A stretch of 49,005 nucleotides of DNA from an uncultured Dokdonia sp. (GTDB taxonomy: Bacteria > Bacteroidota > Bacteroidia > Flavobacteriales > Flavobacteriaceae), in NCBI GenBank assembly GCA_938002835.1, contig CALKZS010000037.1:1-49005 (forward strand), in the 5' to 3' direction. The notes below the pieces were generated by a model. It ran no database searches, was not told the DNA's origin, and saw only the letters and a list, made by a program, of their open reading frames with translations. The position numbers were made by a program, and so were the translations under genes. The first letter of the stretch is position 1, and each line of letters starts with the position of its first letter. Below, piece after piece: positions 2,813-47,581 of the stretch.

Positions 2813-2826
2813 GCTTTCGCGAAAGC
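2813..2826. repeat. 14-bp interspersed palindrome, copy 1
   Basis: Exact GCTTTCGCGAAAGC, in the divergent intergenic region between the secreted protein and the VWA lipoprotein. The left flank is TT and the right flank is GAA. Confidence 0.95.
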
Positions 2827-2967
2827 GAATTACCATTAAAACCTACTCTAATATATTAATTTTTTTTAGTTTGACATCAATACTAGAAAAAGGTTTGACA
2901 AATCATTTAAAAGAAAATAAACATATAATTAATACGTTACATATGACCTACAGTAAAATTATATTTT

Positions 2968-4023
2968 ATGAAAGTATATGCGATTTTAATAATTTCAATA
3001 ATAACATTTACTACAATCTCTTGTAGCTCAAGAGATGATGATGGAGGAAGTATTTCTGGAATAGAATGTCTTAATTTAGGATCTCAAGAACTAGATGTTA
3101 CAATACAAGAATCTTTTACAACTTTACCTTCAAAAGTCTCGGTGTTTTTTAAAGTAAACGACAGTGATGGAAATGGAGTCCCTGGACTAACTCCTTCAAA
3201 TTTTACCATTTTTGAACAAGGTCGTAATGACGATTGTTTTAGTGAAATTTCTGCATCAGAAGCTTCTGGTGTTATTTCTTCTAATGCTCAAATATTTTCA
3301 AACAATACAATTCTAGTTTTAGATTTAAGTAATAGTGTATTGAGCACAAGTTTAGAAGAACTTAAACAAGCATCTAGCAGTTTTATTTCTAATGTAATGC
3401 CAGCAATTCCATCAGAGTCATTTAAAATGGGGATTTACTGGTTTAATGGAGAAGATGTTTTACACGAATTACAAGGTTTTACCACAAGTGCTTCAGTATT
3501 GCAAGAAGCAATTGAAAGCATAGATTCTGATATAAGTAACGATCCTTCTACAGATTTATATGGCGCTGTTATAAAAGCAACAGAAATAGCAGAGGATATA
3601 TTAGTTACTTTAGAAGATCAAGATCTATTTGCCGCTGCTTCAATTGTCTTATTTACAGACGGTAGAGATCAAGCTGCTCGTTATACAGAAAGTCAAGCAC
3701 TTAATGCAGTATCTGGAGCAGATCAAGACATTAGTTTTTTTACTATTGGTTTAGGGTCTGAAATAGATGAAGATATACTAGAAGAAATAGGAGAAACAGG
3801 AAGTGCTTTTGCTACAGAGGCTCAAGAACTAGAGACTGTTTTTAATAATATCTCAAATGATGTAGCTGGACAAGCAAATAGTTTTTATTTATTTGAGTAT
3901 TGTAGTCCTAAACGTGACGGAAGTGGCTCTAGTGAATTAATTATACAGGTTATAGATGGAGAACGTGACGGTGTCGTAAATACCAGTTTTGATGCCACTG
4001 GATTTACTGGAGGTTGTGAATAA
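2968..4023 (+). CDS. VWA-domain lipoprotein
   Basis: 351 residues. A lipoprotein signal ends in TISC with the lipidated Cys at residue 19, followed by SSRDDDGG, an acid-rich stretch like the surface-export signal of Bacteroidota lipoproteins. A von Willebrand factor A domain spans about residues 112-300. The metal-ion-dependent adhesion site is visible: DLSNS (D119, S121, S123), a Thr in STDLYGA, and an Asp in FTDGRD. All MIDAS residues seem intact, so it should bind a divalent metal and a protein ligand. About 70 residues before the VWA domain form a probable beta domain, and a Cys-containing tail follows. The partner is unknown, and no complex genes lie next to it. The ATG at 2968 is the only start that gives the lipobox. 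Confidence 0.85.
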   Translation: MKVYAILIISIITFTTISCSSRDDDGGSISGIECLNLGSQELDVTIQESFTTLPSKVSVFFKVNDSDGNGVPGLTPSNFTIFEQGRNDDCFSEISASEASGVISSNAQIFSNNTILVLDLSNSVLSTSLEELKQASSSFISNVMPAIPSESFKMGIYWFNGEDVLHELQGFTTSASVLQEAIESIDSDISNDPSTDLYGAVIKATEIAEDILVTLEDQDLFAAASIVLFTDGRDQAARYTESQALNAVSGADQDISFFTIGLGSEIDEDILEEIGETGSAFATEAQELETVFNNISNDVAGQANSFYLFEYCSPKRDGSGSSELIIQVIDGERDGVVNTSFDATGFTGGCE

Positions 4024-4139
4024 TGAACAATTTTTATTTTTTTCTGTATTTAAACGTCAAAATTATTTGCTTTATAGACTTTTTATAATTTTAACTAAAC
4101 TATTTTTTAATTTAAATTACTTAGATTATTTTTATAGAA

Positions 4140-4577
4140 ATGTTAGTGAGTGATTCAAGTATTGAATATCCATTAGAGGATATATATATATTAAAAATAG
4201 GTACCTTCTATCTATTTAAAGACTTTCTTATATCAGAATTTAATGAAGGTGTGACTGTAGATTGGGAATCTGTACAAGAAATATTGCATATTGCAGAGTC
4301 TTATTACGGAACAAACGCTAGCATTGCTTATATTTCCAATAGAGTTCATAACTACTCACTTGTGCCTCAAGACTGGTTAAAATTTTTTAAAGCTAGAAAG
4401 TCTATAAATGTAATGGCAGTAGTCTCATATAATTCTCGAGAAAGATCTAATATCCTTTTAGAAAAAATGTTTTTTAAAAATAAAATTAAAAAATTCTATA
4501 ACCTTAATGAAGCAGTAGAATGGGCCGTTTCTTGTCAAAGAAAAAAAAAACCAATAAAAAATAAATCTATTGCTTAA
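4140..4577 (+). CDS. STAS/SpoIIAA-like small protein
   Basis: 145 residues, no signal peptide and no membrane segment, so probably cytoplasmic. The pattern (IGTFYLFKDFLISEFNEG near the start, then VDWE, then IAYISNR, then a long helix and a final EAVEWA) matches a family of Flavobacteriia proteins described as STAS or SEC14-like. Those folds act as regulators or bind ligands. The phospho-acceptor Ser of true anti-sigma antagonists is not obvious here, so I give no specific role. The last 15 residues are Lys-rich. It converges on the rRNA methyltransferase gene, leaving only 9 bases between the stops. Confidence 0.6.
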   Translation: MLVSDSSIEYPLEDIYILKIGTFYLFKDFLISEFNEGVTVDWESVQEILHIAESYYGTNASIAYISNRVHNYSLVPQDWLKFFKARKSINVMAVVSYNSRERSNILLEKMFFKNKIKKFYNLNEAVEWAVSCQRKKKPIKNKSIA

Positions 4578-7003: not shown

Positions 7004-8302
7004 ATGATAAACACAATGAAAAAAATTTCTTTTTTTTTAATACTAGTTATCGCTATGCAAAGTATTGCGATAGCTCAAGAAAATACTGATACTGATCTAC
7101 CTGAATATAACAAGTGGTCATTAGAATTTTCTGCTGGAGTAAACAAGCCTACAAGGCCGTTTAATACTAGTTATTATACAAAAACTCCTTCTTTTTACAC
7201 ATTAGATTTAGGATTAAGACACAATTTTACAGAGTTATTAGGTGCTAAACTGGATGTAAGCATTAATCGTTTCCAAAATGCAGAAAATAGCCTTCCTTTT
7301 GAAACTACATTATATAGAACTTCATTACAGGGAGTTGTAAATGCTGGATCCTTATTAGGGCTTCGTGATTGGTCTAATAGACTCAATTTTCTAGTTCACG
7401 GAGGTATGGGAGTTTCCGTTCTTACATCTAAAGAACCTGTAGATAGAGACTTTTCTAATGGTGATAATATGTTAAACTTTATTGTAGGTATAACACCTCA
7501 ACTTAGATTAACAAATCGTATAGCCTTAACTGGAGATCTTTCAGCTATTGGACACGTTAGACAACATCTTTCTTTTGACGGACTAAATAGAAATGACCTA
7601 AGAGGCTTTGATGGTTTTTATGTAACAGCAAGTATAGGAGCTAATATTTATCTAGGTAGAGGTAAAAAACACGCCGATTGGTATGATGCCGAAAATGCTC
7701 GTTTAGATGATTTAGATGGTAGATTAACTAAGATTGAAACAGATCTTATAGATACTGATCAGGATGGTGTGCCAGATTACTTAGATCGTGAGCCTAACAC
7801 AATTTCAGGAGTAGCTGTTAATACAAAAGGAATTGCTGTAGATCAAAATAAAAATGGTATTCCAGATGAGTTAGAATCTACTCTAGATACTCGTTATGCA
7901 AAATTATCTGACATCCCTACTAAAACTGAACCTGTTATAATTTCTGGTGATGAAATGATTAAAAAACTTATAGAAGATGGTTATGTAAATGTATACTTCA
8001 AGTTTAATAGTACTACCCCAGAAACATATAGTCTTGAGTCTATAAATTATCTCATAAAATATATGACTGAAAACAGCGGCGCTTCTGCACAATTAATTGG
8101 ATATGCAGATGAAATCGGTAATGCTTCAAACAATCAGGTTCTTTCTGAAAAAAGAGCTCAAAAAGTTAAAGATATTATGGTAGCAGCTGGTATTTCTGGA
8201 AACCGCCTTTCTACAACTGGAAATGGAGAAGATGCATCTGTAGATAAGTCGTCTGCTCCTGCTCGTCAGCTTGTACGCAGAGTTACTTTTAAGCTTAACT
8301 AA
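7004..8302 (+). CDS. OmpA-family outer membrane protein
   Basis: 432 residues. A signal peptide (MKKISFFLILVIAMQSIAIAQ, from the second Met at 7016) precedes a beta-barrel-like domain at about 30-220. A calcium-binding thrombospondin type 3-like linker follows near 250-290, with DTDQDGVPDYLD and QNKNGIPDEL. The last 110 residues are an OmpA C-terminal peptidoglycan-binding domain, with FKFNS, GYADEIG and SEKRAQKVKDIM. The protein should tether the outer membrane to the wall. Its own promoter upstream and terminator downstream indicate a single-gene unit. Either ATG (7004 or 7016) is possible, and 7016 gives the more typical signal peptide. Confidence 0.92.
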   Translation: MINTMKKISFFLILVIAMQSIAIAQENTDTDLPEYNKWSLEFSAGVNKPTRPFNTSYYTKTPSFYTLDLGLRHNFTELLGAKLDVSINRFQNAENSLPFETTLYRTSLQGVVNAGSLLGLRDWSNRLNFLVHGGMGVSVLTSKEPVDRDFSNGDNMLNFIVGITPQLRLTNRIALTGDLSAIGHVRQHLSFDGLNRNDLRGFDGFYVTASIGANIYLGRGKKHADWYDAENARLDDLDGRLTKIETDLIDTDQDGVPDYLDREPNTISGVAVNTKGIAVDQNKNGIPDELESTLDTRYAKLSDIPTKTEPVIISGDEMIKKLIEDGYVNVYFKFNSTTPETYSLESINYLIKYMTENSGASAQLIGYADEIGNASNNQVLSEKRAQKVKDIMVAAGISGNRLSTTGNGEDASVDKSSAPARQLVRRVTFKLN

Positions 8303-8389: not shown

Positions 8390-8403
8390 GCTTTCGCGAA
8401 AGT
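8390..8403. repeat. 14-bp interspersed palindrome, copy 2 (one mismatch)
   Basis: GCTTTCGCGAAAGT. The last base differs from the consensus. It lies just after the OmpA terminator and 36 bases before the next ATG. The left flank is AC. Confidence 0.9.
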
Positions 8404-8439: not shown

Positions 8440-8856
8440 ATGAATGATAGACCTAATGACATCAAGCGCATACGCCCAGAAATTCCAAAGGCAAAGATTA
8501 ATGATGAGATGAGTTTAGAAGAATTTTTTCAAAACACAACACTCAGACCTATTGTAAAGCTTCAAAATCCATTGCTAATTGTTGTTTTTAGAAACTACAT
8601 TACAAAGCGTAAAAATGTATTTTATAATCTAACGATAGACAAAAAACAACACTATATTGAAAATGCTTTACAAAAAGATATGAATTTTTCTAACAGTATT
8701 AAAGGTATGGTAATAGGTCAATTTACGGTAGAAGAATATGAAACCTATAGCACTCATACATCTGCTTTAAACAAACGTATTATAAATCTTATTAAAGAAC
8801 GCCTTGTTAGTCAAATACAGCTATTTGAACAGCCACCTAGCCTAAAAGCAAGTTAA
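8440..8856 (+). CDS. Conserved flavobacterial protein of unknown function
   Basis: 138 residues, soluble, no signal peptide, mostly helical by composition. Features include EEFFQNTTLRPIVKLQ at about 27-42, a basic FRNYITKRKNVFY segment, FTVEEYETYSTH, and a C-terminal helix rich in Ile, Lys and Arg ending in KERLVSQIQLFE. I recognise the pattern as a small family common in Flavobacteriaceae, often left hypothetical. No catalytic motif is visible. A near-consensus promoter element (TAACTTTA) sits about 25 bases upstream of the ATG. The stop is followed after 4 bases by a 52-codon membrane protein gene, so the two form a probable operon. Confidence 0.7.
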   Translation: MNDRPNDIKRIRPEIPKAKINDEMSLEEFFQNTTLRPIVKLQNPLLIVVFRNYITKRKNVFYNLTIDKKQHYIENALQKDMNFSNSIKGMVIGQFTVEEYETYSTHTSALNKRIINLIKERLVSQIQLFEQPPSLKAS

Positions 8857-11192: not shown

Positions 11193-12005
11193 ATGAGGCA
11201 CATTACAGGTTTTATACATACTGCTGCATTATGGAAAAACAAACAATTTGACCTGCAACAGTTTGAAATGCCTTCATTTGCGATAGAAAAATTTACACCA
11301 CAACCTATCCCCACAAATCTAAGGTTAGGACATCAAATCGAATATATTTTTAAACAACTTTTAGATCATTCTGAAAACTACAATGTATTAGCACATAACA
11401 TTCAGGTAAAAAAAGGAAAAGATACTATAGGAGAATTAGATTTTATTATAGAAGGTATACGCTTTCGCGAAAGCGTAAAAAAGCTATTACACATTGAACT
11501 TTCTTATAAATTTTATATCATAGATCCCAGCATATCAGAACCCATACATCGATTAATGGGACCAAACAGAAAAGATATGTTTTTTACTAAGATGGAGAAA
11601 ACGAGGGAGAAACAACTTCCATTAATCTATAGTAAAGAAGGTCAGGAAGCATTACAATCAATTGACATTAGTACAGAAAACATAGAACAACAAGTGGTCT
11701 TTTGTGCGCAATTATTTATTCCTTATAAACAAAAAACACCCAATATAAGACCATTAAACACCGAATGTATTGTAGGCTTTTGGATCACTTTTGATGCATT
11801 TTCTACAAATGATTTTCAAGATCACACCTACTATATTCCTCAAAAATATGAATGGTTACATACACCTCATCAAATGGCAACATATAGGTCTCTTTATGAA
11901 ACGTTATTAGATATTAATATGAGTCATCTTAATCAAAGATCTCCTATGGTATGGATTAAAAAGTCTGACACTTTATTTGAAAAGTGCTTTGTTGTTTGGT
12001 GGTAA
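11193..12005 (+). CDS. DUF1853 family protein with a nuclease-like core, palindrome inside
   Basis: 270 residues. The DUF1853 pattern is visible: LRLGHQIEYIFKQLL at about 44-58, GELDFIIEG at 80-88, HIELSYKFYI at 100-109, then LMGPNRKD. E50, D83, E102 and K106 are placed as in PD-(D/E)XK nuclease folds, so a restriction-like core is plausible, though no substrate is known for the family. The 14-bp palindrome (11461-11474) lies in frame here. It encodes RFRES (R90-S94), in the loop joining the two strands that carry the acidic and Lys residues, as if the loop had been enlarged by insertion. Probable operon with the upstream membrane protein gene. Confidence 0.75.
   Translation: MRHITGFIHTAALWKNKQFDLQQFEMPSFAIEKFTPQPIPTNLRLGHQIEYIFKQLLDHSENYNVLAHNIQVKKGKDTIGELDFIIEGIRFRESVKKLLHIELSYKFYIIDPSISEPIHRLMGPNRKDMFFTKMEKTREKQLPLIYSKEGQEALQSIDISTENIEQQVVFCAQLFIPYKQKTPNIRPLNTECIVGFWITFDAFSTNDFQDHTYYIPQKYEWLHTPHQMATYRSLYETLLDINMSHLNQRSPMVWIKKSDTLFEKCFVVWW
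11461..11474. repeat. 14-bp interspersed palindrome, copy 3 (inside DUF1853 gene)
   Basis: Exact core within ACGCTTTCGCGAAAGCGT (11459-11476). It is read as RFRES in the coding frame. Confidence 0.95.
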
Positions 12006-14102: not shown

Positions 14103-14116
14103 GCTTTCGCGAAAGC
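14103..14116. repeat. 14-bp interspersed palindrome, copy 4
   Basis: Exact core, left flank AC, right flank GAA. It lies between the VOC and polyphosphate glucokinase genes. Confidence 0.95.
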
Positions 14117-18764: not shown

Positions 18765-19406
18765 TTAACAAGCCTCCATCCCAGGAAAAGCAAGCATCTC
18801 TCCCATTCCTACAGTAAAAAGCCAGTTGCCATATAATGCGTGTTCTATAGATACTAAAATGGTAGATTTATTTTTTTGATATGTCCACGCAAAGAGTAGT
18901 CCTCCTATGAATGTAAGTACAAGTACTAGTGCATTTTTCAAAAAGAGATGTGCAAGACAAAAGACAATAGCATTTACAAAAATGAGTAATCGTTTATCCT
19001 TAAATATATCATTATAACGCACAAAGAAAAATGTTCTATATATTACTTCCTGCGGCCACACAGATATAAAAGTATATACTCCCAAAATGATAAACCATAG
19101 TTTCATATTACTTCGCGGGACACAAAACAATGAAGATCTATCTAAAAAATAAACAAAAAGACTTGTCACAATAGCGATAACAAGTAGTTTTATAAAAGTC
19201 TCTTTAAAAAACAAAGTCCATTGCAATGATGTACTAGGCAACCATTTTATTTTTTCTTTTCGTATCAAAACATACACTAGATATATAAAACCTATTGCTA
19301 TAGAAGAGAGCTTCATTATAGGATTATAAGGTATTGTGAGACTTACTGGTAATACTATAAATAGCAATAAAAACTCAACTAAGAGATAACGAGATTGGTT
19401 TTTCAT
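18765..19406 (-). CDS. CPBP-family intramembrane metalloprotease
   Basis: 213 residues, about six membrane helices. The three CPBP (CAAX/Abi) motifs are present: WPQEVIYRTFFF near residue 114-125, VFCLAHLF, and EHALYGNW near the C-terminus. In motif 1 the usual EExxxR reads QEVIYR, so the first Glu is a Gln. The second Glu, the Arg and both His residues remain, so activity is plausible. Bacterial members serve in immunity to bacteriocins, membrane-protein processing, or unknown roles. The start overlaps the stop of the Lrp-family gene by 4 bases (ATGA), indicating translational coupling. Confidence 0.85.
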   Translation of the reverse strand: MKNQSRYLLVEFLLLFIVLPVSLTIPYNPIMKLSSIAIGFIYLVYVLIRKEKIKWLPSTSLQWTLFFKETFIKLLVIAIVTSLFVYFLDRSSLFCVPRSNMKLWFIILGVYTFISVWPQEVIYRTFFFVRYNDIFKDKRLLIFVNAIVFCLAHLFLKNALVLVLTFIGGLLFAWTYQKNKSTILVSIEHALYGNWLFTVGMGEMLAFPGMEAC

Positions 19407-19861
19407 AATGATACTGCTGTAGTATTTTTAACTTCATTAATAGTAAATGAGCTTTGCGTACTTCCTATATATTGTAATGCTGTTAATTTGCTTACCATAA
19501 AGTTTCTAAAATGCTCCATATCTTTCACTAGCACTTTAAGTAAATAGTCATAATCACCACTTACGTGAAAACACTCTAACACTTCATCTAGCGCTGTTAC
19601 TTCTTTTTCAAAAGAAGTAATTGCATCTGTTCCGTGATGTGATAATTTTACGTGACAGAATACCTGAAACCCTAGTTCTATCTGTTTTTTATCAAGTATT
19701 GTAATGTATTGAGCAATCACTCCAGAACGTTCCATTTTTTTAATGCGCTCATAAATAGCTGTTACAGAAAGGTTAAGAGATAATGATAACTCTTTATTTG
19801 TAACTTTTGCATCACGCTGTAAATGCATCAAGATTTCCTTGTCTAATTTATCCAGTTTCAT
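19403..19861 (-). CDS. Lrp/AsnC family transcription regulator
   Basis: 152 residues. An N-terminal winged helix (LDKLDKEILMHLQRDAKV to RIKKMERSGVI, about 3-50) is followed by a RAM ligand-binding domain (about 65-145) with VLECFHVSGDYDYLLKV, where amino acids usually bind. Full length and intact. These proteins form octamers that bend DNA and respond to amino acids. Its stop overlaps the CPBP protease start, so the protease is the first candidate target or partner. An 11-bp inverted repeat lies 68 bases upstream and could be its own operator. Confidence 0.92.
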   Translation of the reverse strand: MKLDKLDKEILMHLQRDAKVTNKELSLSLNLSVTAIYERIKKMERSGVIAQYITILDKKQIELGFQVFCHVKLSHHGTDAITSFEKEVTALDEVLECFHVSGDYDYLLKVLVKDMEHFRNFMVSKLTALQYIGSTQSSFTINEVKNTTAVSL

Positions 19862-19897: not shown

Positions 19898-19911
19898 GCT
19901 TTCACGAAAGC
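19898..19911. repeat. 14-bp interspersed palindrome, copy 5 (one mismatch)
   Basis: GCTTTCACGAAAGC. The central CpG-containing half differs by one base. It lies 37 bases upstream of the Lrp-family start codon. Confidence 0.85.
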
Positions 19912-19984: not shown

Positions 19985-20005
19985 GATTCAAGTCATAAAT
20001 GCAAC
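19985..20005 (-). repeat. IS30-type terminal repeat, outer copy
   Basis: GATTCAAGTCATAAATGCAAC on the plus strand. It overlaps the last codons of the IS30 transposase, as is normal for the right end of IS30 elements. It matches 20727-20747 at 19 of 21 positions. Confidence 0.6.
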
Positions 20006-20746
20006 AACTCCGTTGTTGTTGATTGCGTTAACAAATACTTCATTAGGCGTTAAGTAATTATACCTCTTTCTAGGTCTATTGTTTAGTATTTTTTCGACTT
20101 TTTTGACTTGATTTTCTTGAATTAGATCAAAGTTAGTTTTTTTGGGGAAATATTGTCTGACTAATCCATTCAAATTTTCATTAGCTCCTCTTTGCCAGCT
20201 ATGATAGGGTTTGGCGAAGAAGAAATCAATATTAAGTTCTTTAGCAATTTCTTTATGATTAGCAAATTCTTTTCCATTATCGCTTGTTATGGTGTGTATA
20301 AAGGGAGTCCATTCTTCCAATAATTCAATCGCATTTTGTTCTACAACTTTAGATTCTTTACTTTCTATGTACTTCATTTTTAGCATTCCTGTTGCTCTAT
20401 CATTTATAGTTAAGAGTGCTCCTTTGTGATTTGCCCCGATTACGAGATCTATTTCCAAGTCACCAAAACGTTCTTTTTTCTCAACTATATTAGGTCTTTG
20501 AGTAATATCTATTCTACCTACTATTTGACCTCTTGTATTGTTTAAATTACTTCGGTTTTTGTACTTCTTCCCCTTTGTTCTTAGATGTTTATAGAGTAAG
20601 CCTCCATTCTTTTTATCTTTCCAGACAAACTGATATATCCATTCAACTGAGACACAAGGCTTACCTAATCTATTAGCATAGCCAACAATTTGTTCTGGAC
20701 TATAATCTTGTTCCAAATAATGCTTAGATTCAAGTAATAAACGCAA
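19988..20746 (-). pseudogene. IS30-family transposase, N-terminally truncated
   Basis: 252 codons of a transposase that is normally about 310-330 residues. The DDE catalytic core is intact (FGDLEIDLVIG, TSDNGKEF, GANENLNG), and the C-terminus (VVAFMT) is native. The N-terminal helix-turn-helix that binds the terminal repeats is missing, so this copy should be inactive. Transposase homology begins near KHYLEQDYSPEQIVG. The seven codons before it come from an IS30-end-like repeat (20727-20747), so the TTG at 20746 is not a native start. It abuts a truncated IS256-family gene in head-to-head orientation. Confidence 0.85.
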
Positions 20747-20747: not shown

Positions 20748-20750
20748 AGT

Positions 20751-21218: not shown

Positions 21219-21595
21219 TTTACACTCCCAAACAGTTTATCTAAAGTTCCCAATAGTAAACCCTTTGATAACTCTTGCTGTACTAAAAAACCATTCCTAC
21301 TTAATTTTTCATAAAATTAGAGCTGTATAAGAATTGAAATAACACATTATCTTAAAAATCAAAACATTATAATTTATATCAATTTTTTAAGTCTAGTGAC
21401 ATATCATATAGTAAATAAATAATCACGAGGCAGAACCTAGATTAATTCTAATGATAAAAAAGATAACAGTAAAAGCACCTACTAATTAATATACTTATAA
21501 TACTATATAAAAACACAGAAGATCAAAAAATTATGAGCCTTATACAAACAAAAAAGCTTTAAGTATACGCTTTCGCGAAAGCGTACCTACAACTA
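21219..21595. other. Intergenic region between the IS scar and the nuclease gene
   Basis: This AT-rich stretch of 377 bases has no supportable gene. The first part (TTTACACTCCC...) may be leftover IS256 end sequence. It contains one copy of the 14-bp palindrome at 21569. No promoter is needed on the plus side, because the next gene is on the minus strand and ends here. Confidence 0.6.
21569..21582. repeat. 14-bp interspersed palindrome, copy 6
   Basis: Exact core within TACGCTTTCGCGAAAGCGTA. It lies 14 bases downstream of the stop codon of the minus-strand nuclease gene. Confidence 0.95.
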
Positions 21596-23548
21596 TTACT
21601 TAACCAATAACTTCTGTACTTCTCTTCCAGTCACTCCTGTAACTTCTACAAGATATAAGCCTGATGCCAAATTGTGGGGGATAGAAGTTGTGTTACTAAA
21701 TTCCTGTTTGTACACCTTTTGACCTGTACTGTTATAAATCACAAGTTGTCCAGATGCTGTTGTATTTAATACAAATTGTCCAGATGCTGGATTTGGGTAT
21801 ATACTAAATAGGTTTTTTGTAACACCATCTACACTTAATGGATTTGCCCAAGTGTCTCCTACACTATTTCCCCATATAAACTCTACAAGATCTGGCATAT
21901 CAATAAATGGATTTCTATTAAATTGCCAATTGTATACTACATTATTACGATTCATCTCAAAATCATCTGGTGGGTCATTACGATGCCATTCTAATAATAC
22001 ATCTAGATCTCCTAGTTCTCCTATTACTCCATTATCAGGATTACCGCTCACTACTTCAAGACCATTATATCTTATGGTTAAAAATAAAACACTACGAGCT
22101 ACATCTCCATAAAAACTCCCTTGTGTGCCATCTGGGCCACTGTATTCTCCATAATTTTGATTACCTCGAGAGCTATTTTCTGGTCCATCTGCCGCGCGTA
22201 ATGCGTGTGCATCACTATATGCGTGACGTGTATTATTTGCATCTGTAGGTCCAAAAACATCTATTCCATCTGCAATTTCATCTTCTTCTATAGCATCAAA
22301 ACCACCTCTTGAACTAGGATAAGTGTGCTCTCTGTTCCAAAGACCTACATTACTTCCTCCTGCACTTTGAAAATCGAGTTTAGCCCTTTCTTGTTCTGTA
22401 TATAAAAGCCAAACTTGATTACTGTTAAGTGGGCTTTGATCTGCTTCTTTTAGTATATCTATAACATCTGCATAAGTTTGCCATCTTACAACTTCTGGAT
22501 TTGCTATTATATCCTGTAGCGTCTGGGTTAATTCGTCTCCTGCCAAGCCATCAATAGACGTATAATAATCTTCTGGCTGCGTGCTTTCTACTAGACCAAA
22601 TGTAGGTTCTAAAGGTGTTCCCCAAGTTGCTGTGGTAAAATCATTATCTATAATACGTATGCTAAGATTATCATTTGCTCGCTTAAAACCAGCTGGCATT
22701 TCACCAAAAGTAATTTGCAATACTTCATCTCCTTCATCATCTTGATCATCTTCTATTTGTATTGTTATGCTTGCTGTAGAAGTTCCAGTAGCAAAGGTCA
22801 CTTCTGTATCTCCAGAAAAATCATCTGTAGTAAAATTATCATTTATTAATGTAAAGGTAAATGTCACTTCTTCTGCAACCGCTTCTGTCGTTGTAAAGTC
22901 TATTGTTATTTCTTCACCTTCATCATATTGATCTTGACTCACTGTATATCCTACAAGAATAAATGTTGTTCCAGAACCATCATTAAGTTCTCCTGGTGTA
23001 GGTAATGTTACATCATATTCTCCAGCATTATTCAGTTGTATAGAATTTATCGTTGTCGCTCCATTACTTCCTTCATTAATTTGCTCAGTTTCTCCTAGTA
23101 ATGTAAGAAGTGCTATATCATCACTGTCATTAGTATCATATACCAATGCATCTATCAAGTTTGTAGTTGTTGGTTGAGTTTCATCTGGCCAGTCTGATGC
23201 ATTACCCTCATATATAGCAACAGCATCTGCTCCGTTTTGAATAGTACTATCAAATAGAATATAGTCTGGAACGGGAGATACATCGTTACTCCCAATAAGA
23301 ACCACGCCATTAACATCTGATATTAAACCATCTAGATCTAATGCAAAATAACTACTATCATTACCTGCATCAGAACCATTAAAAAGCACTAATACATAAC
23401 CATCTAAAGACGTTTCAGGAGTTGTGAGCAATTCTATAATTTCTAGTTGATCTGTACTTGGAGTATCTGAGTCTAATTCATTAATAACAACTTGACTTTG
23501 AGATGCGATACTAAAAAGAATAAAAAATATTGTGTGAAGATGCTTCAT
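21596..23548 (-). CDS. Secreted endonuclease I with T9SS sorting tail
   Basis: 650 residues from the ATG at 23548, which gives the signal peptide MKHLHTIFFILFSIASQ; the frame extends 16 residues further up but that ruins the signal. Residues about 20-180 resemble a lamin-tail/Ig-like domain (VVINELDSDTPSTDQLEIIEL). About 195-290 is a Calx-beta-like acidic domain (DDQDDEGDEVLQI). Endonuclease I follows at about 300-570, with the core NREHTYPSS and NNTRHAYSDAHALRAAD. The last 75 residues form a type IX sorting domain (IYPNPASGQFV...GLYLVEV). It probably digests extracellular DNA for phosphate and nucleoside uptake, or as biofilm remodelling. Confidence 0.9.
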   Translation of the reverse strand: MKHLHTIFFILFSIASQSQVVINELDSDTPSTDQLEIIELLTTPETSLDGYVLVLFNGSDAGNDSSYFALDLDGLISDVNGVVLIGSNDVSPVPDYILFDSTIQNGADAVAIYEGNASDWPDETQPTTTNLIDALVYDTNDSDDIALLTLLGETEQINEGSNGATTINSIQLNNAGEYDVTLPTPGELNDGSGTTFILVGYTVSQDQYDEGEEITIDFTTTEAVAEEVTFTFTLINDNFTTDDFSGDTEVTFATGTSTASITIQIEDDQDDEGDEVLQITFGEMPAGFKRANDNLSIRIIDNDFTTATWGTPLEPTFGLVESTQPEDYYTSIDGLAGDELTQTLQDIIANPEVVRWQTYADVIDILKEADQSPLNSNQVWLLYTEQERAKLDFQSAGGSNVGLWNREHTYPSSRGGFDAIEEDEIADGIDVFGPTDANNTRHAYSDAHALRAADGPENSSRGNQNYGEYSGPDGTQGSFYGDVARSVLFLTIRYNGLEVVSGNPDNGVIGELGDLDVLLEWHRNDPPDDFEMNRNNVVYNWQFNRNPFIDMPDLVEFIWGNSVGDTWANPLSVDGVTKNLFSIYPNPASGQFVLNTTASGQLVIYNSTGQKVYKQEFSNTTSIPHNLASGLYLVEVTGVTGREVQKLLVK

Positions 23549-23671
23549 ATTAATATATATAAGAGTAAAAATAATGCATATTCTAATCCTAGTCACTTAT
23601 AAAGTGTAAAGATTATGATATAAAAATGTTTTGAACATTGTTCCCAAGTTACTCATTTAGAAATTGTATTT

Positions 23672-28664: not shown

Positions 28665-31058
28665 TTAAGAAGCGACCTCTTCTAATAAATCGTCATAGGT
28701 ATAATATTCTTTTATAGGTGTTTTTGTTTCTTCTAATGCATATAGAATATTCACTCTAATGGCCTTAAGACCAGATACTGCTTGTAAATCTTCTAGTTCT
28801 AAAATCTCTACTTGATCACCTAAGTGTTTTTTGGTTTGTAAAAAACGTATGTAGTTTAAATACTCTTCTTCATCTTCCTTTTGAGAATATACTATAGTAA
28901 GCTTTCCTGGTTGAGTAACACGTTCTTGAGTTCCCCTAACAAATGCTTTATCTACCCGTTTTTTGACGACCTCATATCTGGCATTATATGTCCCATCTAC
29001 ATCAAAACGTTTTTCATCCATTCGGTAACGTACAGATAGTGGGTTATTAAAAACAAGAATCATAGAGGCAACTTCAATGGGGTTTTCTAGCTTTCGCGAA
29101 AGCGTAAAATGTACATTTTCCATCTCACACATTAGTTGTAATTGCCAGAGTCTTAAATTATAAAGGTAGATTTTATTGAAACTATCATCTTTTGTGATGG
29201 ATTCTCCCATATATATATTATGCTCTACTCCATCTGTTTTAAAGAGTTCAAAATAATGAGGATATATTTTCTGTGCTTCTTTTTGTTTTTTCTTAAGCAC
29301 TGAAGACATACGTTTATTAATTAGTGTCACCGTTTCATCATACACTTTACGATGCTTATAGACTAATCCCAAGTTATCTTCTATTTGACTTCTGTATGCA
29401 ACCACAAGTTTATTTAGTGTATCGCTCTTTTCTAATAAATGGGTAAATAATGGTTGTATGTTAACTCTTAAAAAAGCAAGTATTTTTTGTTCACTATCTA
29501 CCTCTAAAACGGTTGAGATATTACTATGAAATGTATTGAGTTGATATATCAGCTGATCATATACAGGCAATTGCTCTGTACGATTTGCTTCTTTTACTAT
29601 CGCAGTAGCGTTACATAACTGTAATAATATGTCTTGTTGTGTTGTTTTATTACGAGCCTCTGAAGAACCTTTAATATCTACCTGTCCAAAAAGAGGATAT
29701 ACATTTTTAAACACGACATCTCTAAACTGAGCATTAGGATCATTATTTAATTGTGATTTTATAAATCGCTTTGCTTCTTGCTCAAACTTCCAGTATACAC
29801 TTTTATGTATAGAAGTACATTCGTTCTGTATAACGAGGTCTATCTCATTCTCTTGTTGTTCTTTATTGCGAAGTACTGCATCAACTAGATAGGGCATTAT
29901 ATCATCTAATTTATTTGCATTAATACTATTGAGCGCTCCTCTTTGATGTGATGTGAGTTCCATTATTCCTAAGAGCTTTCCTTGACTTCTAATAGGAGCT
30001 AAAACCACACTTTGCACACCTTGATCATTAAGGTTTTGATACATCTTAACTTCTGGATATGCTCGATGTACTTTTGCCACATCTGAAATTGCAAAGTACT
30101 TCCCAGTATTAAATACAGCATCATAAGAACCTCGACAAAGTACTGTATTACAAGAAGATTCTACATCTCCATATAATATATAACTACTTATATTAGAGAT
30201 AGGGACAAGCTCAAAAGTATTTTCTTCAGGATTATAATTAGAAAAACCTATGTACAAATTAGGTAAGTTAAAGATTGCCTGAAAAATCTTTTGAAACTCA
30301 CTGGTAAAGTCTATATTTTCTTGTTCATAACGCAATAATCCAGACTTAAAATTTGATAGAGATACATCTGTAGTAGCATCATATAAGTTTGCCAATACAA
30401 AACCTTTAAAAACATAACTCTCTGGCGGGAATTTTTCTTTCCATAACGAGATATTATCAAAGTTATCTAACAACACATCTACATCTTCTTGGGTAATTTG
30501 AGGTGCATTGTCTTTTTTTTCTACTGTAATATAGTCGCCGTTATAAAGCATTCTATAATACCTTAAAACACCTGCGCTATCAGGTATTTCATAAAAAAAT
30601 GGACGCCTAAAATCTATTTCAAATTTATAAAACTGCCTTAATACAAGACTACATCCCATTATATAATAATGGTCTTCATCAAAGTTTTTTATTTCTAAAA
30701 TAAAATCTTTCCCAGCATCGGATATAATAGCATCATAACGAGCGCTTGATTTAATCACATATTCTTGAAATGGCATAGATACTACCTTAATTTCGTTGTG
30801 CTGTAAGGCAATTGGAAAAAGGTTTGACAGTATATCGTCTATAACTTCTTTATATTTATGAAGATCTGATTTGATATTGATTCCAGTGATTAAATCTGGA
30901 TGATCTTCTAATAGCTTAATAACTTCTAGTGCACGATCTTTTATATGTCCTGTAGCAGTTTTAGAAAGGGCTCTGTAGTGTGCTCCTATTTTATCTAAAC
31001 TAAATGTTAGCTCTAGGGGAGATTCTTGATCTTTAAAATATGTATTTATAACCTTCAT
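28665..31058 (-). CDS. Large GAF-domain protein, role unknown
   Basis: 797 residues, no signal peptide. A GAF domain covers about 250-400 (NLYIGFSNYNPEENTFELV, FAISDVAKVHRAYPEV, GVQSVVLAPIRSQGKLLGIMEL). About 400 helical residues follow, and the N-terminal 240 form a separate unknown region. I recognise it as a conserved Flavobacteriia protein without assigned function. It has no output domain such as histidine kinase or cyclase, so it may be a ligand-sensing scaffold. The 14-bp palindrome lies in its coding region at 29090-29103, read as TLSRK(L) at residues 652-657. Its stop is 7 bases from the stop of the HD-PycTM gene, which it faces. Confidence 0.75.
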   Translation of the reverse strand: MKVINTYFKDQESPLELTFSLDKIGAHYRALSKTATGHIKDRALEVIKLLEDHPDLITGINIKSDLHKYKEVIDDILSNLFPIALQHNEIKVVSMPFQEYVIKSSARYDAIISDAGKDFILEIKNFDEDHYYIMGCSLVLRQFYKFEIDFRRPFFYEIPDSAGVLRYYRMLYNGDYITVEKKDNAPQITQEDVDVLLDNFDNISLWKEKFPPESYVFKGFVLANLYDATTDVSLSNFKSGLLRYEQENIDFTSEFQKIFQAIFNLPNLYIGFSNYNPEENTFELVPISNISSYILYGDVESSCNTVLCRGSYDAVFNTGKYFAISDVAKVHRAYPEVKMYQNLNDQGVQSVVLAPIRSQGKLLGIMELTSHQRGALNSINANKLDDIMPYLVDAVLRNKEQQENEIDLVIQNECTSIHKSVYWKFEQEAKRFIKSQLNNDPNAQFRDVVFKNVYPLFGQVDIKGSSEARNKTTQQDILLQLCNATAIVKEANRTEQLPVYDQLIYQLNTFHSNISTVLEVDSEQKILAFLRVNIQPLFTHLLEKSDTLNKLVVAYRSQIEDNLGLVYKHRKVYDETVTLINKRMSSVLKKKQKEAQKIYPHYFELFKTDGVEHNIYMGESITKDDSFNKIYLYNLRLWQLQLMCEMENVHFTLSRKLENPIEVASMILVFNNPLSVRYRMDEKRFDVDGTYNARYEVVKKRVDKAFVRGTQERVTQPGKLTIVYSQKEDEEEYLNYIRFLQTKKHLGDQVEILELEDLQAVSGLKAIRVNILYALEETKTPIKEYYTYDDLLEEVAS
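29090..29103. repeat. 14-bp interspersed palindrome, copy 8 (inside GAF gene)
   Basis: Exact core, left flank TA, right flank GT. It is read in a different frame from copies 3 and 12, giving LSRK. Confidence 0.95.
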
Positions 31059-33420: not shown

Positions 33421-33434
33421 GCTTTCGCGAAAGC
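33421..33434. repeat. 14-bp interspersed palindrome, copy 9
   Basis: Exact core within TACGCTTTCGCGAAAGCGTA, between convergent genes, just before their terminator. Confidence 0.95.
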
Positions 33435-41117: not shown

Positions 41118-41131
41118 GCTTTCGCGAAAGC
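41118..41131. repeat. 14-bp interspersed palindrome, copy 10
   Basis: Exact core within ACGCTTTCGCGAAAGCGT. It lies 4 bases after the stop codon of the metalloprotease gene on the minus strand. Confidence 0.95.
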
Positions 41132-41135: not shown

Positions 41136-43526
41136 TTAGTAACAACCTATTGGAGATCCATCTGGAATTTTAGGAGATGGAAGCGCTTCATACTTTTCTG
41201 GATTTTTAGAAAACTGATCTATCATTGTTACCATATAAGAAGCATTAGGATCTTCTATATTTTTCAATAGTTGTAAACGTATTTTTTTAAGTTCCATTTG
41301 GACTATTGCTTTTGTTTGCGGAATAGCCTTTTTACTTACGGCAAGATTCATTAAATGTTTTAATACATTATAATTAACACTCATTTGAACTTGTGCATAA
41401 TAACTATCCTTCTCTTTTGAGAATAGTGTCAGTTTTGATAATTGTGACAAAACATCGGAAAGCCCTAATTGATTTTGATCGACTGCTTTTTGTTGTATTA
41501 ATCTATTTGCACGTTCGGGGTGTAATAATAATGACAACGTCATATCACTTGCTGTAGATACAGCTCCGAAAGCATCAAAAGCAACTCCTGCGTTACTTTT
41601 AAAACTTTCTCTACTACGATTATATCCGTGTGCTCTTGGAGGAAAAAGAGCTAATTTATCTTGGGGAATTGCTAGCTCTTGTGCACTAACTGTTTTTAAA
41701 ACAGAAGTAAGTGCTTTTTGTTGTTCCTTTTTGCTCACTGTCTTTACTATAGTATTACGACCTCCTTTAACCGCATAATTATACTCTAATCCCCCAATAG
41801 TTTTTATAGCAGCTTCGGTTTGGTATCTATGGTAAAAATAAAGAGGTACAAAAACGTCTTCTAATACTGAGTATGGCTCATTAGAACGTATATTATCCTT
41901 AGAAAAATTTGAAATAGCTCCTGCTCTCAATATAAGCATATTGTCTAGCTCTGTAGCTGCGTTACTTCCATTATCCCAAAGATGTGCTTTAAAGTGTGCT
42001 CCTCCTTGCGGTCTCGCATCTCTATCTGTAATATATTGTAGACCGTCTTCTTGAGCTTTTATGAGAATATTAGTAAGAAAACTATCTTCTTTTTGGTTTG
42101 TAGGCACCACCCCATAACTATATTGTACAGTCACTTTATCCCAATCACCTATTCCAGTTGCATATGCATTAGAAAAATCTACTTCATTATTTTTCCAAGT
42201 TAATGTAGGATGAGGATAATCCATTACACTCGCTCTATTAATTGTACTAGCTGCAAAATTATGAGCAAATCCAAGTGTGTGCCCCACTTCGTGGGCACTT
42301 AACTGTCGTATTCTTGCAAGTGCCATATCAAGCATAGGTTCATAATTATCATCACGCTCTTTAAAAGGCTGGTTCATTAATGCTTGTGCTATTAAAAAAT
42401 CTTGACGTATACGTAAACTTCCTAAACTCACGTGACCTTTTATAATCTCTCCGGTTCTAGGGTCTGTCACACTAGCTCCATAACTCCACCCTCTTGTACT
42501 ACGATGCACCCATTGTATAACATTATACCTTACATCCATAGGGTCTGCATCTTTAGGAAGCATCTTTACTTGAAATGCATTTTTAAAACCTGCTGTTTCA
42601 AATGCTTGATTCCACCAGCTAGCTCCTTCTAATAAAGCAGATCGTACTGGTTCTGGTGTTCCTGGGTCTAAATAATAAATAATAGGTGCTACAGCTTCAC
42701 TCATTGCTGCTTCAGGGTTCTTTTTCTCAAGACGATGTTTATTTGCAAATCTTTTTACAATAGGCTCTTGAACAGGAGTCGCATAATCAAGATATGTGGT
42801 TGAAATATTACCTGCTCTTGGATCAAACACTCGAGGTTTATAATTTGAATCTGGCAATTGTACAAATGAATAATGCTGTATTACTGAGATCGTATTTACA
42901 TCTGGAGCTACAGTTCTTAAGTTTCGGCCAGAAGGAGTTCCTTTATATGTTAATAATGCTTCAAACTCGGTATTTTTAGGAAAAGACTTTGTGCGTTGCA
43001 TTTGTATAGCACTTCGTGACTTATCTATTTTGTACGTACCTTCTTTAGAACTTTTGAGTCTAGTTGAGATTCTGTGCATATCTTCTAATAAGAAAGAAGT
43101 GATATCTATTAAATAACTATCCTTTTTTTGCTCTACTATGGGAAATCCATAAAGTACCGAAATCGCAAAAGCTTCTTCTATTGATTTTTTTTCTAACTCA
43201 TTATCTGTATTTGCTCGATAACGCAAATTAGGTTGTATTAATAAAAGTTTATTACCTGCTTTTTGAAATTTTACAATGGCTGTACTTCCTAACTGTCCTC
43301 TATCTATCCCGATATCATTACTCCCTAAACCTGTTCTAAGAGAATGTACAAAAAGAAACTCTTCATCTAGTGTTGTGACCTCTATATATATTTTATCATT
43401 TTTTTCATCATAGTGCGTATTGAAAAATCCTTTTTGAGTATCTATATTTTCTTTTGAAGAAAGAAATTGAGCAAATGTAGTACTCGTGACAAGAAGTACA
43501 ATCACAAATAAATAATAATGTTTCAT
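41136..43526 (-). CDS. Secreted zinc metalloprotease (HExxHxxGxxH; DUF5117/DUF4953 type)
   Basis: 796 residues. Signal peptide LFVIVLLVTSTTFAQ. N-terminal DUF5117-like region about 25-190 (GFFNTHYDEKNDKIYIEV), then the catalytic domain with HEVGHTLGFAH (His412, His416, His422, Glu413) and a Met-turn SVMDYP. Residues 500-796 form the helical C-terminal domain with an absolutely terminal GSPIGCY, whose Cys may be a ligand or disulfide partner. The family of about 800 residues is common in Bacteroidota and is thought to be envelope proteases; substrates are not known. Two zinc proteases stand side by side here. Confidence 0.9.
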   Translation of the reverse strand: MKHYYLFVIVLLVTSTTFAQFLSSKENIDTQKGFFNTHYDEKNDKIYIEVTTLDEEFLFVHSLRTGLGSNDIGIDRGQLGSTAIVKFQKAGNKLLLIQPNLRYRANTDNELEKKSIEEAFAISVLYGFPIVEQKKDSYLIDITSFLLEDMHRISTRLKSSKEGTYKIDKSRSAIQMQRTKSFPKNTEFEALLTYKGTPSGRNLRTVAPDVNTISVIQHYSFVQLPDSNYKPRVFDPRAGNISTTYLDYATPVQEPIVKRFANKHRLEKKNPEAAMSEAVAPIIYYLDPGTPEPVRSALLEGASWWNQAFETAGFKNAFQVKMLPKDADPMDVRYNVIQWVHRSTRGWSYGASVTDPRTGEIIKGHVSLGSLRIRQDFLIAQALMNQPFKERDDNYEPMLDMALARIRQLSAHEVGHTLGFAHNFAASTINRASVMDYPHPTLTWKNNEVDFSNAYATGIGDWDKVTVQYSYGVVPTNQKEDSFLTNILIKAQEDGLQYITDRDARPQGGAHFKAHLWDNGSNAATELDNMLILRAGAISNFSKDNIRSNEPYSVLEDVFVPLYFYHRYQTEAAIKTIGGLEYNYAVKGGRNTIVKTVSKKEQQKALTSVLKTVSAQELAIPQDKLALFPPRAHGYNRSRESFKSNAGVAFDAFGAVSTASDMTLSLLLHPERANRLIQQKAVDQNQLGLSDVLSQLSKLTLFSKEKDSYYAQVQMSVNYNVLKHLMNLAVSKKAIPQTKAIVQMELKKIRLQLLKNIEDPNASYMVTMIDQFSKNPEKYEALPSPKIPDGSPIGCY

Positions 43527-43620: not shown

Positions 43621-43634
43621 GCTTTCGCGAAAGC
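43621..43634. repeat. 14-bp interspersed palindrome, copy 11
   Basis: Exact core, left flank TT, right flank GTA. It lies immediately downstream of the M57 gene terminator on the minus strand. Confidence 0.95.
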
Positions 43635-46406: not shown

Positions 46407-46414
46407 CACAATAG

Positions 46415-46443
46415 AAAAGACTGAGATGCACTCGGTCTTTTTT
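46415..46443 (+). terminator. Rho-independent terminator after lysA
   Basis: AAAAGACTGAG (46415-46425), loop ATGCA, and CTCGGTCTTTT (from 46431). 11 bp with one G-U pair, then a T-run to 46443. Confidence 0.9.
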
Positions 46444-46465
46444 AGTTTATATATTTTTAACCTCA

Positions 46466-47581
46466 ATGAAACACATTTACATTATTTTTTTAATACTTCT
46501 TATTGGTTGTGAAAATCCAATAGAAAAGGTAGTTAATACCGATAATGATATTATAAAACCTGTTATAGATAGTATCAACAAGTATGAAGTACAAATAATG
46601 TATACACAAGTAGATACGTCAGAAAGTGGAGAAATCATATTAAAAGATTATACATATAATGTAGATAAAAATGCATATTTCTATCCTGCAAGTACTATAA
46701 AACTTCCTATTGCTATTCTTGCAGCAGAATATATTGAAAAACAAGAAAACATCTCACTAGACACTCCATATGTAATAGAAGGAGATTCTAAAAAACATAC
46801 TATAGCAAATGATATTGAGCAAATATTTACAGTCAGTGACAATAATGCTTTTAATAGATTGTATGAACTTTTAGGGCGAGATTATGTAAATACACGCTTT
46901 CGCGAAAGCGATCTAACTCCCACAAGACTGGCACATAGATTATCTCAAAGAGGGGCAACAAGTGAGACACTCAAATCATTAACATTTTTTCCTGGTTATA
47001 CAGCAGATTTACAGGCAATACAAAAAAAAGAAGACTCCCCAATACAATCATTAAAGATTAACAAAGTACACAAAGGAAAAGGATATATTTATGAAGAAGC
47101 TCTAGTTAAAAAACCAATGGATTTTAGTAAGAAAAACTATTTTCCATTAGAAAAACAACACGAGATGATGCAACGTCTTATATATCCCGAAACTTTTGAT
47201 AACAAAGATCACTTTACAATTTCTAATACGACTAGAGAAAGAATACTCAAAATGATGCAAACCTTACCTAAAGATGCTGGTTATGACAATTATTATTATG
47301 ATAGCTATGTAAAATTCTTTATGTATGGAGATTCTAAAAAACCCATTCCTAAGCATATGAAAATTTATAATAAAGTAGGATATGCTTATGGAACTCTTAC
47401 TGAAACTGCCTTTATAGAAGACACAAAGAATGATATTAAATTTTTCTTATCTGCTACCATTCTTGTAAATAAAAATGAGATTTTTAATGATAATGTCTAT
47501 GAGTATGATAATATAGGTATACCTTTCTTATCTGAACTAGGAAGAGAATTTTATAAACTAGAGATAAGTCGTAAGAAATAG
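46466..47581 (+). CDS. Serine hydrolase of the class A beta-lactamase/PBP fold, lipoprotein
   Basis: 371 residues. Lipoprotein signal (FLILLIGCEN, Cys15). The three active-site motifs of penicilloyl-serine enzymes can be read: PASTIKLP with Ser76 and Lys79, SDN at 124-126 (FTVSDNNAFN), and KVGYAYG as the KTG-like motif. It belongs to the broad serine hydrolase family; lactamase activity is not established, and an envelope peptidase role is as likely. The class A Omega-loop Glu is not identifiable. A copy of the 14-bp palindrome lies inside it, read as RFRES (144-148). Confidence 0.82.
   Translation: MKHIYIIFLILLIGCENPIEKVVNTDNDIIKPVIDSINKYEVQIMYTQVDTSESGEIILKDYTYNVDKNAYFYPASTIKLPIAILAAEYIEKQENISLDTPYVIEGDSKKHTIANDIEQIFTVSDNNAFNRLYELLGRDYVNTRFRESDLTPTRLAHRLSQRGATSETLKSLTFFPGYTADLQAIQKKEDSPIQSLKINKVHKGKGYIYEEALVKKPMDFSKKNYFPLEKQHEMMQRLIYPETFDNKDHFTISNTTRERILKMMQTLPKDAGYDNYYYDSYVKFFMYGDSKKPIPKHMKIYNKVGYAYGTLTETAFIEDTKNDIKFFLSATILVNKNEIFNDNVYEYDNIGIPFLSELGREFYKLEISRKK
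46896..46909. repeat. 14-bp interspersed palindrome, copy 12 (inside serine hydrolase gene)
   Basis: Exact core, left flank AC, right flank GAT. It is read as RFRES, the same frame as copy 3. Confidence 0.95.

Follow-up and report, generated by a model that had tools for sequence, protein, structure and literature searches.

The window analysed here, a stretch of 49,005 nucleotides from an uncultured Dokdonia sp., carries the 14-bp palindrome GCTTTCGCGAAAGC in nine exact and three one-mismatch copies. The first exact copy (2813..2826) lies in the divergent gap between the open reading frames (ORFs) 2019..2729(-) and 2968..4023(+). It is followed by a copy with a mismatch in the last base (8390..8403, in the gap from 7004..8302(+) to 8440..8856(+)), by an exact copy in the 18-bp form within the ORF 11193..12005(+) (11461..11474), and by an exact copy in the co-directional gap 14062/14213 (14103..14116). 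A copy with a changed inner base (19898..19911) is located between the ORF 19403..19861(-) and a transposase remnant (19988..20746(-)). The next exact copy, again in the 18-bp form (21569..21582), occupies a convergent gap just past the stop of 21596..23596(-), and the co-directional gap 23596/23724 holds a copy that deviates in the second base from the end (23672..23685). Further exact copies were detected within the ORF 28665..31058(-) (29090..29103) and, in the 18-bp form, in the convergent gap 33400/33515 (33421..33434); the corresponding gap is longer in L037, where it contains two exact sites, and in L038, where one exact and one one-mismatch site are present. A zinc-protease-like ORF (41136..43526(-)) is flanked by two exact copies. 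The one just downstream (41118..41131, 18-bp form) is common to L037 and L038 and has decayed in L036, and the one upstream (43621..43634) adjoins, by eye, a terminator-like hairpin. The last exact copy (46896..46909) lies within the ORF 46466..47581(+). By eye, terminator-like hairpins precede some of the sites, and a TATCTTAG box is located downstream of one conserved site.

All 12 positions given by the sequence-only reading of this DNA were reproduced, and no further match to GCTTTCGCGAAAGC occurred in the window even when up to two mismatches were allowed; dinucleotide shuffles of the window contained 0.07 matches on average. Its assignment of the copies to genes and to divergent, convergent and co-directional gaps likewise agrees with simple ORF calling, by which the exact copies at 11461, 29090 and 46896 are intragenic and the other six of the nine lie in gaps of these types. 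The extreme rarity expected by chance stood as well, with other figures: the GC content of the window is 32.5% instead of about 35%, and its base composition predicts 0.000035 exact 14-mers instead of a number of the order of 0.0001. Extension to an 18-bp palindrome, which had been called frequent, holds without a mismatch for four of the 12 copies (11459, 21567, 33419 and 41116).

The density in the window is typical of the genome (9 per 49 kb and 610 per 3098 kb, respectively). A genome-wide count, proposed earlier as a check, revealed 610 exact copies in the 3.1-Mb genome to which the window belongs (93% complete) and none of the reversed control. Copy numbers of 369 to 905 were obtained in all 18 Dokdonia genomes searched, i.e. 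this genome and 17 others. Three Nonlabens genomes contained 578, 664 and 609 copies, and one single-contig genome (G222) of a third genus, g206, contained 408; none of 391 other Flavobacteriaceae genomes exceeded 19. The density of exact sites amounts to about one per 3.6 to 7.8 kb. In the best sampled genome, the complete, single-contig relative G016 with 899 sites, 129 exact copies were counted in 400 kb, compared to none in three order-4 Markov replicates; the counts close to Markov expectation that had been named as a refutation were thus not observed. Near-copies are rare, with exact to one-mismatch ratios of 899:72 in G016, 610:99 in the own genome and 408:128 in G222. A description of the motif was not found in searches of open-access papers. 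When the four most over-represented palindromes per length were surveyed in six groups of named loci of other genera, three 10-mers reached three occurrences each, whereas no 12- or 14-mer did so.

In the G016 sample, 65 of the 129 sites lie inside ORFs, and the gaps contain 13 sites in 8.0 kb (divergent), 10 in 3.3 kb (convergent) and 37 in 19.3 kb (co-directional). A terminator or promoter element was rejected because of this distribution, and the earlier view that no single operon operator explains the palindrome was correct. The spacing of the sites in G016 is more even than expected by chance. Only 6 of 109 neighbours are less than 1 kb apart (34.6 expected in the position control; 0/2000 simulations as low), and this deficit persisted under a strict control with at most one site per gene or gap (22.1 expected; 0/1000 simulations as low). 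Counts across 20 stretches of 20 kb were under-dispersed (index 0.30, P 0.0015). The effect is weaker in the own genome, where 4 of 37 intervals fell below 2 kb under the strict control (11.3 expected; 3/1000 runs) and the deficit of pairs closer than 1 kb was not significant; in G222, with 26 intervals, even spacing was not significant under the strict control. Even spacing is thus firmly established in one genome. Plotting the sites against origin and terminus, as had also been proposed, gave no density gradient in 20 samples of G016.

The sequence around the core is conserved, too. Symmetric flanks of about 25 bp on each side consist of TTAC beside the core, followed by a G/T-rich and C-poor stretch on both strands. 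These preferences are position-specific and alike between intergenic arms (220) and genic ones (214); G222 possesses the same core and almost none of the long flank signature. The flanks show no site-by-site complementarity and no 10.5-bp helical periodicity, and position-specific preferences in arms that do not pair speak for protein contact and against a hairpin. An RNA or DNA hairpin was also rejected because genes and divergent gaps both contain sites. Outside full sites, the bare half-site GCTTTCG shows no enrichment (27 per 400 kb, compared to 58 in motif-free related genera), which indicates that the two halves are favoured in combination, as would suit a dimer on double-stranded DNA. 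The longer half-words CGCTTTCG (17 vs. 7.5) and CGCTTTCGC (13 vs. 0) are slightly and somewhat in excess outside full sites, respectively, and one-sided near-copies may be the source. The inner TCGCGA shows no excess (38 per 400 kb; 58 in relatives). The mismatch falls in the outer two half-site positions in 13 of 22 one-mismatch copies and in the inner three in 9.

Alignments of close and distant relatives showed that sites arise and decay through point mutation, and no insertion footprint of the palindrome was visible in the alignments seen. At one closely studied site, in addA, selection acts on the DNA rather than on the protein: the site is intact in 5/5 Dokdonia species, in which the AddA proteins are 47–66% identical, and it encodes SRFRES, a peptide present in none of nine other AddA rows. 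The earlier proposal of selection was right: the palindrome must be maintained by it.

Islands in the genera g92 and g67 carry the palindrome with the same flanks, and the motif is otherwise absent there. Metal-transport genes were found in motif-bearing islands of other genera, in which the flanks are present as well. The occurrence of motif and flanks in such islands suggests transfer from motif-rich hosts, and the motif may be usable as a stamp of origin for transferred DNA. The g92 and g67 islands are richer in one-mismatch copies (exact to one-mismatch 49:22, compared to 223:22 in pooled Dokdonia loci). As an argument for decay this is soft, because other islands (L116–L131) exhibit a ratio of 39:6, close to Dokdonia, G222 itself has one of 408:128, and the copies in islands are in part inherited from common ancestors. 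Sites in islands reach a chromosome-like density (16 in 78 kb in G108). Two Nonlabens phages of 35.7 kb each carry no site; among the 80 matches listed of at least 120, most viral contigs have one copy and a few AT-rich ones two or three.

We tentatively favour the explanation that a sequence-specific DNA-binding protein, confined to Dokdonia, g206 and Nonlabens, binds the palindrome at roughly even intervals throughout the genome and functions on the scale of the chromosome; this could well be correct. A symmetric dimer or higher oligomer of the putative protein would read the palindrome, and the sites would most likely serve as anchors or boundaries in organising the nucleoid or maintaining the chromosome. 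Such a role would explain why about one exact site per 3.6 to 7.8 kb is needed, why neighbours closer than about 1 kb are avoided in the best sampled genome, and why genes and gaps of any type tolerate sites. Among the candidates named earlier, a putative chromosome-organisation site fits best; the even spacing in G016 speaks for it and the lack of a gradient between origin and terminus against it. The cognate protein was not found. ParB, the one family tested for the reading of binding sites, showed nothing special: one chromosomal-type ParB is present in 21/21 genomes, and a second, longer match (602–616 aa) occurs in one motif-rich (G010) and two motif-poor genomes (G176 and G049). An extra ParB common to motif-rich genomes is thus not supported by the search of 21 genomes. 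The ORFs beside neighbours less than 1 kb apart revealed, by eye, no candidate for an autoregulated regulator.

It is possible, with somewhat less confidence, that the sites belong to an undescribed landmark system, in which a lineage-restricted dimeric protein would bind an effective palindrome of about 60 bp roughly every 4–8 kb, with few neighbours within 1 kb, and would partition the chromosome into loops or segments of set length. If this is true, the sharing of the site between Nonlabens and Dokdonia with its neighbouring genus would point to the horizontal transfer of one organising protein or to its repeated adoption in separate lineages. Hundreds of preserved sites imply that this sequence is read by a process at the scale of the chromosome in these bacteria, and identification of the protein would make nucleoid organisation, DNA exchange or self-recognition directly testable in Bacteroidota.

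A DNA uptake signal, by which palindrome-bearing DNA would be imported preferentially and recombination of the imports would spread and repair the sites, is an unlikely explanation. The motif resembles uptake sequences in being lineage-specific, in occurring hundreds of times within and between genes, in changing by point mutation, in its even spacing and in its degenerate T-rich flanks, and the two site-free Nonlabens phages fit as well. To our knowledge, known uptake signals are not palindromic. The classical form, one of the earlier candidates, is weakened by the distribution of the type II/IV pilus and secretion ATPase family PF00437, which was above the cut-off in 4/10 motif-rich and 1/11 other genomes, and not in the single-contig genomes G016 (899 sites) and G222 (408 sites). 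Furthermore, G016 has 12 exact copies for each one-mismatch copy, unlike an Actinobacillus uptake sequence, for which counts of 438 exact and 947 one-mismatch copies are given (PMC1939737), although chance matches weigh more for that 10-letter word.

Improbable, to a slightly greater degree, is a bidirectional Chi-like signal, at which AddAB would switch from either side and RecA would be loaded on the G/T-rich 5' flank. Known Chi sites are 5–8 nt long and asymmetric. In E. coli, Chi sits in GT-rich islands that RecA prefers, and the G/T-rich and C-poor 5' flank on both strands of the palindrome matches this setting. The AddB nuclease family PF12705 was above the cut-off in 20/20 genomes searched, and the two phages again lack the site. 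On the AddB tree the motif label has to change three times, and the motif-rich rows form one group in 0/200 bootstrap trees; hence an AddAB acquired in common by transfer is not supported, although the well supported branches alone are compatible with one origin. The bare half-site should be enriched for a reader of one strand, which is not the case. The density of sites is comparable to that of Chi, with 1008 copies in E. coli (PMC1939737).

We consider it doubtful that the palindrome is a self-marker, i.e. that a defence or DNA-quality system tolerates only DNA carrying the site at intervals. The contrast between the chromosome-like density in islands, as in G108, and the site-free phages points in this direction, and even spacing would follow if the loss of a nearby duplicate were costless. 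On the other hand, two giant genes in G016 leave 33 kb with one site between them, both site-free phages were isolated on their host, and the AT-rich viral contigs with two or three copies, among the matches listed, do not conform to this idea.

A highly iterated palindrome like HIP1, held by methylation and methylation-dependent repair, is very improbable. Known methyltransferases read far shorter stretches than the conserved 14–18 bp plus flanks. The C5 methyltransferase family PF00145, to which this argument is restricted, is absent in 6/10 motif-rich genomes, including G222 and the own genome (93% complete), and TCGCGA, the inner part, shows no enrichment apart from full sites; the earlier suggestion of a methylation target of this kind is therefore disfavoured. 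The extreme excess of a GC-rich palindrome in a few genera (610 copies in the own genome, 369–905 in 17 other Dokdonia) recalls HIP1 and alternate HIPs, which are described as similarly excessive in certain lineages (PMC4390886). HIP in Synechocystis is also sharp, with 5648 exact and 1830 one-mismatch copies reported (PMC1939737), and the position of 13/22 mismatches in the outer two half-site positions is in line with this model, whereas that of 9/22 in the inner three is not.

A mobile short element of the REP/RAYT or MITE type copying itself into new places is hardly credible: very high copy number, presence in islands and a Y1/RAYT-type transposase (PF01797) in 5/10 motif-rich genomes (own, G011 and three Nonlabens) would suit it, whereas PF01797 is absent in G016 and G222, both single-contig, and in G003, G010 and G013, the alignments show substitutions and no insertions, genes contain half of the copies, and the copy in addA is common to 5/5 species. 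The sequence-only reading was right to doubt a REP element; the self-propagating palindrome that it listed is not supported by the alignments seen.

Among known systems, REP/BIME elements with RAYT are likewise palindromic, present in high copy number and enriched between genes; the Dokdonia motif differs in changing by substitution, in lying half in genes and in the absence of RAYT from two single-contig motif-rich genomes. HIP1 and alternate HIPs, as presented in PMC4390886, share the short GC-rich palindrome, the large genome-wide excess and the limitation to certain lineages; HIP1 has 8 bp, whereas the Dokdonia motif has 14–18 bp with flanks of about 25 bp, shows no excess of its inner core apart from full sites, lacks a C5 methyltransferase common to all motif-rich genomes and has few neighbours within 1 kb in G016. 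The USS and DUS of Pasteurellaceae and Neisseriaceae resemble it in hundreds of lineage-specific copies, point-mutation dynamics and degenerate flanks. In contrast to them, the motif is palindromic, has fewer one-mismatch forms than the one example compared, and occurs in two single-contig genomes with the pilus ATPase below the cut-off. With Chi it has in common about one site per several kb and, as in E. coli, a G/T-rich 5' flank, but it is a long palindrome and not a short one-way word, its half-site is not enriched, and no transferred AddAB is apparent. The parS, Noc and MatP sites are alike in being palindromic dimer sites read chromosome-wide. MatP and Noc sites show a density gradient towards origin or terminus, whereas the palindrome has no visible bias of this kind in the 20 samples of G016; compared to all three, it lacks an extra common ParB, has a different half-site register and is present in hundreds of sites instead of tens.

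All twelve copies of the palindrome (nine exact, three with one mismatch) which the sequence-only reading had placed in the window were recovered at their positions, and the genome-wide count which it had called for yielded 610 exact copies in the own genome of the window (3.1 Mb, 196 contigs); the reversed control word had no copy in these 3.1 Mb. The GC content of the window was 32.5%, lower than the previous estimate of about 35%. Base composition predicts 0.000035 copies of the exact 14-mer in the window, and dinucleotide-keeping shuffles gave a mean of 0.07 matches at up to two mismatches. The window also holds two adjoining transposase remnants (19988-21218): an ORF whose rve integrase core scores below the Pfam cut-off, and a Mutator-family transposase of which the C-terminal quarter is left.

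In all 17 other genomes of the same genus, 369–905 exact copies were found, and the exact palindrome was absent from all 21 genomes of other genera searched alongside. Among 397 Flavobacteriaceae genomes, six were motif-rich. Two were Dokdonia, the own genome among them, three belonged to the genus g26 (578, 664 and 609 exact copies) and one to the genus g206 (408). The remaining 391 contained either no copy (317 genomes) or 1–19 copies (74 genomes), and a 15-letter form reached at most 4 copies (one strand) in any of 345 further genomes of the class. The nearest named relatives of the zinc-protease-like gene at 41136..43526(-) were Dokdonia loci (69–75% identity, including one MAG labelled Cytophagaceae), and of four further genomes of the genus in the protease tree, three carried a protease identical to named Dokdonia loci. 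In this tree, g26 clustered with named Nonlabens (support 100) and g206 stood beside Dokdonia (support 90, unstarred). Its well supported branches required the motif label to change at least twice and, since the tree rests on one gene, two origins, transfer or loss are each possible. The AddB nuclease family was present in all 20 genomes searched; the AddB tree needed three label changes for the motif-rich rows, which formed a single group in 0 of 200 bootstrap trees, and its well supported branches alone were compatible with one origin. A second PDDEXK match lay near addB in most other genomes and on another contig in the Nonlabens genome G425; it was not found in the Nonlabens genomes G273 and G042.

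The distribution along the chromosome was analyzed in the single-contig Dokdonia genome G016. In 400 kb sampled, 129 sites were divided into 65 within ORFs, 60 between ORFs and 4 at stretch ends; the ORFs, from a simple longest-first caller, covered 91% of the sequence, and site density was about tenfold higher between genes across all three gap types. Copies in divergent, convergent and co-directional gaps and inside genes, as previously described for the window, occur here as well. The reading frame A-F-A-K-A was used by 34 of the 65 genic sites. At two loci (L018, near 19483, and L146, near 9846), the palindrome encodes AFAKAQ at the expected signal-peptide end, as judged by eye, in the starts of two predicted exported proteins, a neat codon accommodation.

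The sites of G016 were spaced evenly. Twenty 20-kb stretches contained 3–9 sites each (under-dispersed, index 0.30, P 0.0015), and the dispersion index of the first 380 kb was 0.55. Only 6 of 109 neighbour distances were below 1 kb. A control matched for genic and intergenic site counts gave 34.6, and a strict control allowing at most one site per gene or gap gave 22.1; a value as low as that observed was reached in none of their 2000 and 1000 runs, respectively. When the strict control was applied to the own genome, there was no effect at 1 kb, but 4 of 37 distances were below 2 kb where 11.3 were expected (3 of 1000 runs); under this control, 26 intervals of g206 showed no effect. Among the 377 kb listed for G016, the two widest gaps coincide with giant ORFs (4431 and 5060 codons). 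These ORFs (L149-L150, G016:C1 285001-325000) both lack the exact palindrome, and ORFs of identical lengths (318 and 653 aa) follow each of them. Because of the even spacing and the indifference to gene context, a chromosome-scale role, exerted via a putative binding protein, fits these sequence data best.

In the flanks, TTAC is preferred on the 5' side adjoining the core. Further out, to about 25 bp, the 5' flanks of both strands are C-poor (0–14%) and T-rich, with G enriched to about 18 bp; the bias fades by about 30 bp. Intergenic arms (220) and genic arms (214) were alike in this signature, which was similar in the own genome and at six Nonlabens sites and almost gone in g206 beyond 3–8 bp. 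In genic and intergenic sites alike, T was preferred at offsets 4, 7, 10 and 13, i.e. about every three bases. Pairing between the left and right flanks of individual sites did not exceed chance. We infer that the pattern may reflect double-stranded DNA contacts of a putative symmetric protein complex, which is supported by the joint requirement of the two halves, by the symmetry of the flanks and by the absence of pairing.

Near-copies were few: pooled Dokdonia loci held 223 exact, 22 one-mismatch and 37 two-mismatch copies. At least 15 of these 37 combined one full half and the core TTTCGCGAAA with a missing outer GC in the opposite half; 5 showed the symmetric form GCTTTTGCAAAAGC. Outside full sites, the bare half-site GCTTTCG was not in excess (27 per 400 kb vs 58 in motif-free genera, represented by 12 loci), whereas the longer half-words CGCTTTCG (17 vs 7.5) and CGCTTTCGC (13 vs 0) were; one-sided near-copies could be the source.

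Individual sites are gained and lost. Between the close Dokdonia loci L037 and L038, two sites differ by single substitutions, and at one of them a neighbouring T tract also differs in length. Upstream of the protease gene, ten Dokdonia rows showed five exact, one one-mismatch and four missing sites in scrambled surroundings. At its 3' end, three rows have the site in codons and lack the gap site 180 bp away, three have only the gap site, one a decayed gap site and three neither. In addA, a 15-bp site was intact in all five Dokdonia at an AddA identity of 47–66%; it encodes SRFRES, a peptide present in none of nine other AddA rows, eight of them from motif-poor genomes. Selection at this site acts on the DNA.

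In some low-count genomes, copies were clustered. In G108, a single 78-kb stretch accounts for all 16 copies; it carries metal-transport genes of the RND and P-type ATPase kinds and has a serine recombinase near its end. In G083 and G318, 16 of 17 and 18 of 19 copies, respectively, lie on two contigs each, and the nine of G176 are scattered over six. Related stretches are present in other low-count genomes, and the G108 island (L391-L395) and L116-L131 form a family of island-like stretches with palindrome and flanks in several Flavobacteriaceae genera. A copy pair exactly 933 bp apart recurs in seven genomes, which represent six genera (G108, G110, G119, G133, G192, G246, G318), and island copies retain the flank signature (C 8–9%). 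Islands of the genera g92 and g67 held 49 exact and 22 one-mismatch copies (vs 223 and 22 in Dokdonia, Fisher P 2e-5) and G108 alone 16 and 9 (P 6e-4), P values which are too small because copies are partly shared by descent. The islands were likely exported from a motif-rich lineage, their sites decaying where nothing keeps them; this is no more than likely given the kinship of copies and the ratio in L116-L131 (39 exact, 6 one-mismatch), which is close to Dokdonia. Two Nonlabens phages (35.7 kb each) had no copy at up to two mismatches, where chromosomal density would predict about 6 per phage; a few AT-rich viral contigs among the matches listed had two or three.

Of the candidate machinery, C5 methyltransferase (PF00145) was absent from six of ten motif-rich genomes (G000, the own genome; G003, G010, G013, G222, G273). 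The Y1/RAYT transposase (PF01797) was absent from five of ten (G016, G222, G003, G010, G013); the other five, namely the own genome, G011 and the three Nonlabens, carried it. Chromosomal-type ParB was found in all 21 genomes, with nothing peculiar in the helix-turn-helix of motif-rich genomes by eye; the parS consensus word GTTTCACGTGAAAC was not found in the loci examined, including those around parB. The pilus/secretion ATPase PF00437 exceeded the cut-off only in G000, G010, G013, G273 and motif-poor G049; full T2SSE-type ATPases (L361-L365) were limited to 5 of the 21 Flavobacteriaceae genomes, with a patchy occurrence in both Dokdonia and Nonlabens.

Beside the chromosome-scale role, a DNA uptake signal, a Chi-like signal or a self-marker are possible functions. 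Searches of the open-access literature showed no report of the palindrome, papers holding the 10-mer core being judged by title and abstract opening. According to counts in PMC1939737, an Actinobacillus uptake sequence has 438 exact vs 947 one-mismatch copies, E. coli Chi 1008 vs 8855 (3579 expected by chance) and a HIP word in Synechocystis 5648 vs 1830. As these words are shorter than the palindrome, they provide a rough comparison for its sharpness, with 899 exact vs 72 one-mismatch copies in G016, 610 vs 99 in the own genome and, less sharply, 408 vs 128 in g206.
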